Virus record (IMG/VR): IMGVR_UViG_3300030012_004735 | Span: 1 to 22,168 of that record | Source of the DNA: a virus | DNA length: 22,168 nucleotides | Reading direction: 5' to 3' (one strand) | In this document: positions 2,713 through 8,436 of the stretch, in pieces | How the letters are laid out: each line of letters opens with the position of its first letter | Numbering within the stretch: position 1 is the first letter of the stretch | Notes under the pieces: generated by a model | What the model saw: only the letters and a program-made list of their open reading frames with translations | What the model was told of the DNA's origin: nothing | Databases searched by the model: none | Position numbers and translations under genes: made by a program

Positions 2713-3149
2713 TATTTGATACCGAGTTCATTTTCCGTAAGAACTTTGAATTCATAACCACGATCTAAACACCATTCTTTTGCTGCACCCCACTTTGCCT
2801 GATTTTTGGCATATTCCATGACTTCATAGATATAACCCTTAGTTTTTTTCTTTTGAACTTTAGGTTCTATACACTGCTTATATGGTTTGATTTCAATTAT
2901 CATCTTCTTAATCTTTCCAGTGGACTCTTTTACTTTTATATAAAAATCTGGAAAGTATCTATGATATCTATTATCAACAGGAGAACGATAGGGAACCGTA
3001 ATTTCTTCACTACCCCACTCTAATATGTTTTCGTTCTTATCACAGTAGACCATGAACTTGCGTTCCCATAAAGAACGGTATATAATATTGTTCGCATCGC
3101 CCTTATATTTCTTAGGATAAGATGGTTTGTAATATCCTTTATATGACAT
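2712..3149 (-). CDS. 4: gp4 head completion protein (PD-(D/E)xK nuclease fold)
   Basis: A 145-aa protein strongly resembling T4 gp4 (gp50/65 in older usage), needed to finish DNA-filled heads before tail joining and reported to have nuclease activity. The family signature IIYRSLWERKFM is at residues 22-33, followed by ILEWGSEEITVPYRSPVDN and RYFPDFYIK. A PD-(D/E)xK core is visible: P67-D68, then E86-I-K88, with hydrophobic strands on either side and a conserved Glu (E29) upstream. It is first in the minus-strand operon. Its start codon abuts one of the two inverted TCTAAATA octamers (3182-3189 drives this direction). No Shine-Dalgarno sequence is evident. The ATG at 3149 gives the family's expected N-terminus. 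Confidence 0.9.
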   Translation of the reverse strand: MSYKGYYKPSYPKKYKGDANNIIYRSLWERKFMVYCDKNENILEWGSEEITVPYRSPVDNRYHRYFPDFYIKVKESTGKIKKMIIEIKPYKQCIEPKVQKKKTKGYIYEVMEYAKNQAKWGAAKEWCLDRGYEFKVLTENELGIK

Positions 3150-3189: not shown

Positions 3190-3948
3190 GTGGCAAATAA
3201 CCTTGTCAAAGCAATTACAACTCGTGATATTAGAGAGTTAATAGGACAACCGGCACTTACTAATAATTATTTGGTTTATATACCAGTGCTCTCTTCAAAT
3301 ATGGAGAATTCTCCTAATCAAAAATTAGCAGACCACATAAAAAAATATGGTAGATTAACTGATGGTGAGTTCTTAAAAAGAAAAATAGGACTTCTCTGTT
3401 CTGAGGCATCATTGCCAACTTCATCTTATGCTACCGCAGAAGTTAAGGATAATTTTGTGGGAGTCACTCAAGAATTTGCACATACTCGTTTATATGCTGA
3501 TACTGACTTTACTTTTTATGTAGATAAAAACTATGATAGTTTGAAATTCTTTGAAGCATGGATGGATTATATTTCTGGTGCTGGGGAAGTTTCTCAAAGT
3601 GATAAATTAAAAAAATCTGGATATTTTAGAAAAATGGCGTATCCCGAATATTATAAAATTTCGGAAATGTCAATAACAAAATTTGAGAGAGATATTAAAA
3701 ATATTAATAATGAGTACATAAAATATACATTTATTAACGCATTTCCAAAATCAATGGCAGCAGTTCCAGTTGCTTATGGTGCTGCCGAGTTACTAAAAGT
3801 GACAGTAAGTTTTAACTATGATAGATATATTATTGATAGAATTGTGAATCCAGAGATACAAGCATTTGTTGATGATAATAAAAGGAGTATAGAAGATGCA
3901 AAAATTCTTGTTAATGGTGGGACTATTATAACAGATATTGGTGGATAA
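3190..3948 (+). CDS. 54: gp54 baseplate tail-tube initiator
   Basis: A 252-aa protein with the tail-tube fold pattern shared by T4 gp19, gp48 and gp54. It has FLKRKIGLLCSEASLPTSSY near residues 61-80, an aromatic strand DTDFTFYVDKNYDSLKFFEAWMDYI (about 115-140), and a C-terminal beta section with FINAFPKSMAAVPVAYG and LLKVTVSFNYDRYII. In T4, gp54 binds gp48 on the hub and nucleates the tube. The start is GTG at 3190, and there is no alternative because an in-frame TAG lies at 3178-3180. No Shine-Dalgarno is visible. It is divergent from gp4 and first gene of the plus-strand tail block. It could in principle be another tube-like protein such as gp19, but its position next to the gp48/gp53 operon and gp26 favours gp54. 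Confidence 0.78.
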   Translation: MANNLVKAITTRDIRELIGQPALTNNYLVYIPVLSSNMENSPNQKLADHIKKYGRLTDGEFLKRKIGLLCSEASLPTSSYATAEVKDNFVGVTQEFAHTRLYADTDFTFYVDKNYDSLKFFEAWMDYISGAGEVSQSDKLKKSGYFRKMAYPEYYKISEMSITKFERDIKNINNEYIKYTFINAFPKSMAAVPVAYGAAELLKVTVSFNYDRYIIDRIVNPEIQAFVDDNKRSIEDAKILVNGGTIITDIGG

Positions 3949-3986: not shown

Positions 3987-4709
3987 ATGCCTTTACCCAA
4001 GATTAATACTCCAACTTACGAGTTGGTGTTGCCCTCTAATGGAAAGAAGATTAAATATCGTCCTTTTTTAGTCAGAGAAGAAAAAATTCTTATCATGGCA
4101 ATGGAATCTGAGGATATGAAACAGATTACCGATGCTATTGTTCAGATTCTTGGAGATTGTATTCTTACAAAAGATGTAAAGGTAGAATCTCTAGCTACCT
4201 TTGATATTGAATATTTGTTCCTGAATGTTCGTGCTAAGTCTGTTGGTGAAACAGTGGAAGTTAATGTAACTTGTCCTGATGACAATGAAACTCAAGTCGA
4301 AATGGAAATTCCTATCGACACTATTAAGGTTCAGAAGACTAGAGGACATAAGAATATTATTAAACTTGATAATGAACTTATGATGAAGTTGAAATATCCA
4401 TCTTTAAATCAATTTATTGAGAGTAACTTCGAAACGTCGGAAGTATCTAGTGATGTTAATCAATCTTTGTCAATGATTACATCATGTATTGATGCAATTT
4501 ATAATGAGGAGGAAAGTTGGGAAGCAGCAGACTGTACTAAGAAGGAACTTGATGAGTTTATTGAACAATTGAACACAAAACAGTTTAAGATGATTGAGAA
4601 GTTTTTCAGCACCATGCCAAAACTTACTCATAAGATAAATGTAAAAAATCCAACTACTGGAGTTGAATCTGAAGTTGTCCTTGAGGGATTGGCAAGTTTT
4701 TTCAGTTGA
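3987..4709 (+). CDS. 26: gp26 baseplate hub assembly protein
   Basis: A 240-aa protein with the characteristic start of the T4 base plate protein family (Pfam T4_baseplate): LPKINTPTYELVLPSNGKKI, then KYRPFLVREEKILIMAMES, then FDIEYLFLNVRAKSVGE. A short beta domain with CPDD follows (residues about 100-130), then an acidic helical C-terminal part. In T4, gp26 is an assembly factor for the central hub and is not a major virion component. A candidate late promoter precedes it. The 3' end overlaps the next small ORF, and its last codons AGT TTT TTC AGT TGA contain a slippery heptamer that could direct some ribosomes into that ORF (see findings). The zero-frame product would be the more abundant form. 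Confidence 0.92.
   Translation: MPLPKINTPTYELVLPSNGKKIKYRPFLVREEKILIMAMESEDMKQITDAIVQILGDCILTKDVKVESLATFDIEYLFLNVRAKSVGETVEVNVTCPDDNETQVEMEIPIDTIKVQKTRGHKNIIKLDNELMMKLKYPSLNQFIESNFETSEVSSDVNQSLSMITSCIDAIYNEEESWEAADCTKKELDEFIEQLNTKQFKMIEKFFSTMPKLTHKINVKNPTTGVESEVVLEGLASFFS
4697..4703 (+). promoter_or_regulatory. Candidate -1 programmed ribosomal frameshift site (T TTT TTC)
   Basis: The heptamer T TTT TTC is aligned with the gp26 codons AGT TTT TTC, which is the frame required for tandem -1 slippage. The -1 frame is closed upstream by TGA at 4682-4684, and gp26 stops at 4707-4709, so only about 22 nt could host a productive shift and the heptamer lies in it. After the shift, translation continues CAG TTG AGT ATG GCT into the small ORF, giving a fusion of about 301 aa. 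A weak stem GTATG/CATAC (4710-4714 with 4718-4722) begins 6 nt downstream. No experimental evidence is available to me. Confidence 0.55.
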
Positions 4710-4711
4710 GT

Positions 4712-4891
4712 ATGGCTCATACCAATCTTGAGTCATACTATAAAGTTAATTTTGCCTTGATGCAGCATCATAAATACTCTTTAACGGAGTTAGAAAATAT
4801 GATTCCGTGGGAGAAAGAAATTTATGTGACTTTACTCCAGCAATATGTTGAAGAAGAAAACTTAAAGGCACAACAACAGAATGGTAATTAG
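4712..4891 (+). CDS. Small hub-assembly protein, gp51-like / possible frameshift extension of gp26
   Basis: A 59-aa protein if started at ATG 4712; a TTG at 4706 would add two residues but overlaps the gp26 stop. The sequence has the pattern of small proteins found directly after gp26 in marine T4-like phages: LESYYKVNFALMQHHKYSL, then ENMIPWEKEIYVTLL, then a charged helix EEENLKAQQQ. In T4 the next gene after 26 is 51, a hub assembly catalyst, but T4 gp51 is much longer, so the name is positional. No good Shine-Dalgarno precedes ATG 4712. It may be made by translational coupling at the overlapping gp26 stop, by -1 frameshifting as a gp26 fusion, or both. Its 3' end overlaps the next gene by 11 nt. 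Confidence 0.8.
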   Translation: MAHTNLESYYKVNFALMQHHKYSLTELENMIPWEKEIYVTLLQQYVEEENLKAQQQNGN

Positions 4892-6711: not shown

Positions 6712-8436
6712 ATGCAGAAACAAGTAACTCAACTAAAACTTAATGTCACTAATATTAAAAAATCTTTATTTTCGTCTAATAAGGAAATAAAGAAACTTAA
6801 GAGTGATAAAAAATCTTTACTTTTTAAGTTGGAGAAAAGATCGGAATTAAGGGCAGAAGAACAAAGATTAGAAACTAAAAAACTTAATATTGGTTCAGGA
6901 TTTTCTAGAATTGCCCGTGCTGTTACTTCTCCTGTCAAGAGTATTTTTGATAGAATTCTTGAGTTTGCCGGTTTAGTTGGAGCTTCAATTTTAATTAATA
7001 GTCTGCCTGCAATAATAGCAAAAATTGAAGAATTTTTTAATAGTGATTTTATAAAAAATACCGGTAGGGTTTTGAGTGCTATTGGAAATGGCATTATGAA
7101 ACTTGCAGAATTTACTGGGATACTGCCAAAATCAGATCAAGATAAAATTGAGGAAGATATAATAGAAACTGGAAAATTATTTGATAAGAATATAAAAGAT
7201 TTTGATGATACAAAGGGAGAAAGAGATGATTTAGATAAATTCTTAAAGGAAAAAGAAGGAGATGGACAAGAAGAAGAACAACCAACAAATATATCTCCAG
7301 CACAGGTTATTCCTGTTCCACCAGAATCGGGAATAAAACTTGTACCGGCAGGACCAACACAATCTAGTCCCTCTATGGATTCGAGTTCCACTCAAAAACT
7401 CAGTTCTGGTGGAACAGTAAAGCGTGCGAATAGTACTAAATTATCTTCACAACCAATATATCAACCAAAGAAAAGTGGTGTTCTGAAAAAGGCACAGAGA
7501 GATGCTAATGATGGATTTAGAAATTTTCCATTAGCAGTAGATAATATTCATGAATCTACAAAGGAGCAAGAAAAAAATATATTAGCATTCTCTAAGATGT
7601 TGAAAAATTCCAGAGAATTGGAAATGTTTGATAGTGGTAAAAAAACTAAATCTGGTAGTCCTGATGGTCTTAGTAGAAGAAGTGGTGGAATGCTAAGTCA
7701 ATTTACAGGTCCTTATAATTCTGGAAAAACAGGTTCCTTTGCTTCTGGTGCTTATATTGGAAAACCGGGAGATCCTGACGGAGAACAAACTGGATTAAAT
7801 ATGAATTTATCCGGTGGTATTGGAACACCAATTTATGCTCCTTTTGATTTGATTTATAGATCAAAAGGAACTGATGGAAATCCTTCAGTCGGATTGCAAG
7901 GAACTCCTGATGCTTTAGGTCCATCTGGAAGAGGTTTTGGATTTTATGGTGCTTATCGTTATATGAAAAATGGAAAAGAGTATGAAGTGTTGATGGGACA
8001 TTTTAAAGATCTCCCATTTAAAGGAAGTAAAGATGGTGAAATTATTAAAAAAGGAACATTATTGGGATATCAGGGTGCATCTGGTAGATCTATAAGCGGT
8101 ACAAATGGTGTTTATCCTCATATTTCTCTTCATGTTAATGGTATAGGATTTAGAGCTTCTAATTCTGAACTTGTTGATGTTGCAGATAGTATAAGGACTG
8201 GAAAATCTTCTTCATCAGTTACACCCAAATCTACAGCACCGAAAGTCACGACAGTTAGTCCACAAGCTGGAAATGGTGGTTTGCGATTAAATAGAAGTAT
8301 GAATAATCAATCAGTATTCATATATGCTATTCAACCACAAGAAACTTTTGTTCCTTTCCCATATCCAATGCCAGTAGAAAAAATTGTTCCCGTTTCAAGT
8401 TCAAGTCCACAATTATCATCAATATGGAGAACCTAA
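6712..8436 (+). CDS. Tail structural protein with degenerate M23 (LytM-like) peptidase domain
   Basis: A 574-aa protein. Residues 1-60 form a Lys/Glu-rich coiled coil. Residues 72-100 (SPVKSIFDRILEFAGLVGAS) are clearly related to the preceding protein (APIKGIFDRIKEFFGL). Residues 130-250 are acidic and low-complexity. Residues about 345-490 have the M23 metallopeptidase layout: a Gly-rich entry, GTPIYAPFDLIYRS, EVLMGHFKDL (H430), KKGTLLGYQGASG and YPHISLHVNG. The usual first motif H-x-G-x-D reads Q359-T-G-L-N363, and the final H-x-H reads S472-L-H474, so the zinc site looks incomplete and the domain is probably structural or sugar-binding. The C-terminus is Pro-rich (FVPFPYPMPVEKIVP). It follows the tape-measure candidate and precedes the hub gene, so it is probably at the tail tip or inside the tube. 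Confidence 0.7.
   Translation: MQKQVTQLKLNVTNIKKSLFSSNKEIKKLKSDKKSLLFKLEKRSELRAEEQRLETKKLNIGSGFSRIARAVTSPVKSIFDRILEFAGLVGASILINSLPAIIAKIEEFFNSDFIKNTGRVLSAIGNGIMKLAEFTGILPKSDQDKIEEDIIETGKLFDKNIKDFDDTKGERDDLDKFLKEKEGDGQEEEQPTNISPAQVIPVPPESGIKLVPAGPTQSSPSMDSSSTQKLSSGGTVKRANSTKLSSQPIYQPKKSGVLKKAQRDANDGFRNFPLAVDNIHESTKEQEKNILAFSKMLKNSRELEMFDSGKKTKSGSPDGLSRRSGGMLSQFTGPYNSGKTGSFASGAYIGKPGDPDGEQTGLNMNLSGGIGTPIYAPFDLIYRSKGTDGNPSVGLQGTPDALGPSGRGFGFYGAYRYMKNGKEYEVLMGHFKDLPFKGSKDGEIIKKGTLLGYQGASGRSISGTNGVYPHISLHVNGIGFRASNSELVDVADSIRTGKSSSSVTPKSTAPKVTTVSPQAGNGGLRLNRSMNNQSVFIYAIQPQETFVPFPYPMPVEKIVPVSSSSPQLSSIWRT

Follow-up and report, generated by a model that had tools for sequence, protein, structure and literature searches.

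Genes 26 and 51 of a marine T4-like phage very probably act as a single tail assembly chaperone gene whose long product arises by programmed −1 ribosomal frameshifting

The window analyzed here, i.e., the whole stretch of 22,168 nucleotides of the 25.8-kb IMG/VR virus record IMGVR_UViG_3300030012_004735 (positions 1 to 22,168), carries gene 26, a small ORF lying in its −1 frame and, immediately 3′ and overlapping the end of the small ORF, a tape-measure-like gene (Table 1). The small ORF was identified as gene 51 by its match to PHROG 634 (‘baseplate hub assembly catalyst’) and also to the last columns of PHROG 150. Among annotated phage records, the nearest relative was Marine virus AG-345-L05, with a gp26 that is 75% identical. 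That a tape-measure-like gene follows had been proposed from the sequence, and this was supported by a weak family match of its 606-aa product and by synteny, with genes at the equivalent position in KVP40-like and phiM7 phages matching tape measure families. Further downstream, a 574-aa protein encoded at 6712–8436 showed, over residues 410–471, a match to M23 peptidases that fell short of the threshold (E 0.008).

Table 1. Features of the gene 26/gene 51 junction and its surroundings in the window.
Feature	Position	Strand	Evidence
Gene 26 (TAC-N, short form, 240 aa)	3987..4709	+	PF12322 T4_baseplate, E 2.4e-74; PHROG 150, E 6e-81
TGA shutting the −1 frame upstream; 5′ limit for a productive shift	4682..4684	+	sequence
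SD-like GAGGG, 9 nt 5′ of the heptamer; likely upstream stimulator	4683..4687	+	GAG codon bias, anti-SD pairing
gp51/TAC-C domain, −1 frame	4685..4891	+	PHROG 634, E 1e-27; also PHROG 150 (C-terminal columns)
Slippery heptamer T TTT TTC	4697..4703	+	phase shared by 275 of the 279 distinct junctions in relatives
gp26 stop TGA	4707..4709	+	sequence
11-bp hairpin (4709–4719 with 4729–4739), 9-nt loop	4709..4739	+	−14.8 kcal/mol
ATG, possible start for free-standing gp51	4712..4714	+	sequence
Tape-measure-like gene, 606 aa	4881..6701	+	PHROG 25241 (tape measure), weak, E 4.5e-6

Gene 26 ends with the codons AGT (4695–4697) TTT TTC AGT TGA (4707–4709), in which T TTT TTC, two codons 5′ of the stop, has the X XXY YYZ phase relative to the zero frame. 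The −1 frame is open from 4685 to a stop codon at 4889–4891, and the heptamer sits inside the 22-nt window that permits a productive −1 shift. A shift at this point would join 3987–4703 to 4703–4891, with base 4703 being read twice, and would yield a product of 301 aa. Codons and coordinates bore out the original prediction in these respects, namely the in-frame heptamer just before the gp26 stop, the TGA that shuts the −1 frame some 22 nt upstream and a fusion of about 301 aa. Across the nine large plus-strand genes checked (approximately 4,300 codons), T TTT TTN occurs in frame at just two further positions (4064 and 12888), so that a chance heptamer within the productive window of about seven codons would be expected with a frequency of around 0.3%. 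A chance origin was ruled out because the heptamer is kept in 275 of 279 related junctions.

These relatives were gathered by means of gp26 or gp51 patterns that excluded the junction, and were complemented with annotated phages; a mixed Aeromonas/Vibrio alignment was dropped as a scanning query because it was too divergent. T TTT TTN was present in phase at 275 of the 279 distinct gp26/51 junctions of T4-like phages, and the −1 ORF reached 50–69 aa past the gp26 stop in 277 of them. The heptamer was found in cyanophages, P-HM2-like phages, Stenotrophomonas phages DLP_6 and Ps15, Sinorhizobium phage phiM7, Pootjesviridae, Aeromonas phages PX29 and 65 and KVP40-like Vibrio phages. Clustering at 80% gp26 identity yielded 163 clusters, picked for having the heptamer, with four of the 279 junctions left out. 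Within this set, the heptamer read TTTTTTC in 107 clusters, TTTTTTT in 37, TTTTTTA in 18 and TTTTTTG in one, and the T run, which was 6–8 bases long and exactly six in 126/163, invariably began at codon position 3. A purely codon-driven heptamer was ruled out by two observations. Firstly, control Phe-Phe pairs elsewhere in gp26 were slippery in 9/163 cases, compared to 163/163 at the junctions by which the clusters had been picked (Fisher p 1e-82). Secondly, Phe is replaced by Leu (UUU UUA) in some relatives with the slip property retained, the Phe-Leu pair being encoded via TTA in 18 clusters. Alignment of many junctions, as originally suggested, therefore revealed that heptamer, phase and −1 frame are conserved beyond codon constraint.

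The four junctions without the heptamer were those of two contigs, L084 (IMGVR_UViG_3300028829_006604) and L123, and those of two Vibrio phages of Ackermannviridae-like type, D528 and SD25 (SD25 being represented by its IMG/VR copy, L352). Neither contig was retained as a true exception: L084 has lost the end of gp26 with the heptamer through a deletion that spares the stop and gp51, while L123 contains a premature stop, with a normal TTTTTTC 127 nt further on. Both look like defective phages or misassembled contigs. In D528 (L170, junction near 3085) and SD25 (L352/L169, near 2250/3244), gp51 lies in the −1 frame and no T TTT TTN occurs at the junction. Only CTT TTC or GTT TTT, along with TAATG-type stop/start overlaps or nearby starts, were observed there, and these phages may use another slip site or reinitiation. 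Save for these two phages without a canonical heptamer, the junctions showed none of the arrangements that had been named as speaking against a shift, i.e., non-overlapping genes, other relative frames or the lack of a slip site.

With regard to stimulatory elements, the 11-bp hairpin starts 5 nt after the heptamer, with z values of −3.6 against synonymous recoding and −2.6 against dinucleotide shuffles. A small stem at 4710–4722, initially put forward as the downstream structure, can form; however, it was rejected as the main stimulator, since the stable predicted fold is the larger hairpin at 4709–4739. Across the 163 clusters, the mean hairpin z value was −1.96 compared to synonymous recoding of gp51 (p 3e-30, uncorrected for shared ancestry), and individual values of p < 0.05 were reached in 54% of them. 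Other clades carry unrelated hairpin sequences at the equivalent site, such as GGGCTCTC/GAGAGCC(T) and GCCCTC/GAGGGC. No hairpin was detected by this folding analysis in the Pootjesviridae Atu_ph04 and N34, in Aeromonas phage 65 or in D479. Upstream, anti-SD pairing (GAGG) peaked 7–10 nt 5′ of the heptamer, with a mean z of −1.1 against a synonymous null, and the Glu codon at the SD-like site was GAG in 83 of 118 clusters, compared to 30% elsewhere (Fisher p 1e-18). Judging from this codon bias and pairing, the SD-like GAGGG is probably an upstream stimulator. The −1 cassette of Escherichia coli dnaX has a three-part layout. The junction described here resembles it in its upstream SD-like element, its near-single-base heptamer and its hairpin about 5 nt downstream (PMC5009743), and differs from it in having a U run instead of an A run, in the unrelated genes concerned and in that the shift would lengthen the protein, whereas it truncates the dnaX product.

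The T4 branch provides a natural contrast to the phages with a frameshift signal, as a second gene would there replace the shift. T4 gp51 (249 aa) matched PHROG 150 over its full length (E 3e-84) and, in its last 100 residues, PHROG 634 as well (E 1e-23), which indicates that it consists of a gp26-like domain plus the domain encoded here by the small ORF. In T4, gp26 and gp51 are encoded by separate genes on opposite strands. Loss of frameshifting after such a gene separation predicts that the slip site should be absent from this branch and, as expected, no T TTT TTN was found in the last 20 gp26 codons of T4 and seven further Straboviridae-type phages, in which the stand-alone gp51 is 247–253 aa long. 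T4 retains the homologous Gly-Leu-x-x-Phe-Phe, coded by TTC TTT, as in KpV477, and by TTC TTC in Pet-CM3-4.

Regarding function, the predicted gp26 model (mean pLDDT 87.5) had the HK97 tail assembly chaperone 2OB9 as its top PDB match in Foldseek, albeit without significance (E 0.8). With VIA-align, Z values of 7.8 over 84 residues for 2OB9, 7.8 for 3FGX and 7.1 for YqbN 3KLU were obtained, with subsequent rows at 5.0, 4.3 and 2.4; we take 3FGX and 3KLU to be TAC-type structures as well. PDB sequence searches with the gp26 and gp51 profiles returned nothing informative, and when the isolated gp51 domain was compared by fold with viral models, the best matches were weak, falling on short proteins of phages and on baseplate/gp51 proteins of T4 type. 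In the suggested comparison with known tail chaperones, 2OB9 leads in ranking and Z value and lacks a significant Foldseek E value, and the model supports, with middling strength, a resemblance of the gp26 N-terminal domain to HK97 gp13. The shift could be real and its products still be parts of the baseplate hub rather than tape measure chaperones, in keeping with the names of PHROG 150 (‘baseplate hub’) and PHROG 634 (‘hub assembly catalyst’). These names stem from T4 genetics, however, and the gene order directly 5′ of a tape-measure-like gene, the N-form/NC-form architecture, the likeness to HK97 gp13 and the reported 2022 reassignment of T4 genes 26 and 51 to chaperones all make a hub role improbable. 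Structure and gene order thus support a chaperone role without proving it.

A different reading concerns the route by which gp51 is made, namely that it is produced only as a separate small protein through termination and reinitiation at an ATG after the gp26 stop, the heptamer being incidental. ATG 4712 lies directly past the stop in this phage, and an ATG is present within five codons of the junction in 70/163 clusters. In contrast, 88/163 clusters have neither ATG nor GTG nor TTG in the gp51 frame at a distance of up to five codons from the junction; in these, therefore, the full gp51 domain could not be started alone from a common start codon. Furthermore, heptamer and phase stay constant even where the encoded residues differ, and in T4 the two domains are joined within one reading frame. 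On these grounds, we regard exclusive reinitiation as very unlikely, although free gp51 might possibly be made from ATG 4712 in addition to the fusion. The lack of a start codon at the beginning of the domain also explains why gene 51 is annotated in truncated form in syn9, P-HM2, Aeromonas phage 65 and Vibrio phage D479. In GenBank, gp51 is shortened to 30 aa in P-HM2, 47 aa in syn9 and 26 aa in Aeromonas phage 65, and it is unannotated in many cyanophages. The truncated ORFs map to 2771–2914 in syn9 (L175), 2082–2174 in P-HM2 (L176), 3292–3372 in Aeromonas phage 65 (L163) and 3439–3531 in D479 (L178). Database entries for gp51 are consequently often wrong, being either truncated or missing. 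Lastly, transcriptional slippage on the homopolymer run of 6–8 T, by which an added base would yield the fusion from an altered mRNA, can be practically dismissed, since the run comprises just six T in 126/163 clusters compared to about nine in documented bacterial cases (PMC5009743), and the invariant phase and the frequent hairpin at 5 nt suit ribosomal slippage.

Taken together, genes 26 and 51 very probably constitute a single gene for a tail assembly chaperone, expressed by way of programmed −1 ribosomal frameshifting. The view of gp26 and the small ORF as a G/GT-like pair, already advanced in the original prediction, is well supported by the conserved heptamer, phase and frame, the missing gp51 starts, the hairpin, the T4 gene that joins a gp26-like and a gp51 domain in frame, and the likeness of gp26 to HK97 gp13. 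From the observed site and its conservation, together with the homology, we infer that a shift occurs at an efficiency at which most ribosomes would terminate at 4707, giving TAC-N (gp26, 240 aa). Some ribosomes would stall on U UUU UUC, aided by the hairpin and probably also by pairing of the SD-like GAGGG upstream, and slip by −1 to produce TAC-NC (gp26 plus the gp51 domain, 301 aa). On the model of lambda G/GT, the tape measure protein encoded directly downstream would then be coated by numerous copies of the short form and few of the long one, which would also recruit tube subunits.

Vladimirov, Gautam and Davidson (2022, Virology 566:9–15) reportedly identified genes 26 and 51 as the T4 chaperone genes and are said to have found frameshifting conserved in several T4-like groups. 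The original prediction, in which no description for T4-like phages was known, was therefore mistaken on novelty, as chaperone genes 26/51 with poly-T shift sites had been published in 2022. A 2025 paper (PMC12846349) credits that work with −1 shift sites of the poly-T kind in the TAC-N genes of T4-like phages, and the PRFect paper (PMC10885494) cites it for T4-like phages having separate short and fused genes. The present locus belongs to the same families as those 26/51 chaperones (PF12322/PHROG 150 and PHROG 634), and differs from T4 in that one gene with a frameshift takes the place of two genes for the short and long forms. Similarly to lambda gpG/gpGT (PMC5009743), the −1 shift would fall just before the short-form stop, the C-terminal domain is on the long form and a tape measure gene (here, tape-measure-like) comes next, whereas the heptamer differs and sequence homology would not be expected. 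Phage Adele (Vandenendeviridae/Andersonviridae TAC, PMC12846349) is likewise a myophage in which TAC-N ends in a poly-T −1 site and the small ORF is annotated as a separate gene; its motif, however, is GTTTTT instead of T TTT TTN.

The phenomenon is thus already known for T4-like phages, and the present case is a well-supported instance of it, to which our comparisons add the breadth of conservation, a probable SD-like stimulator and evidence from missing starts; the analyses of missing starts, of the SD-like element and of synonymous constraint may be new. We see an even chance that a three-part, dnaX-like cassette (SD-like GAGG, U UUU UUN and a hairpin about 5 nt on) is conserved in most non-T4 lineages of the supergroup, that it is likely among the commonest recoding signals of marine viruses and that it is the sole route to the complete gp51 domain in more than half of the lineages. 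The frameshift very probably accounts for the way in which abundant marine T4-like phages express a core factor of tail assembly.
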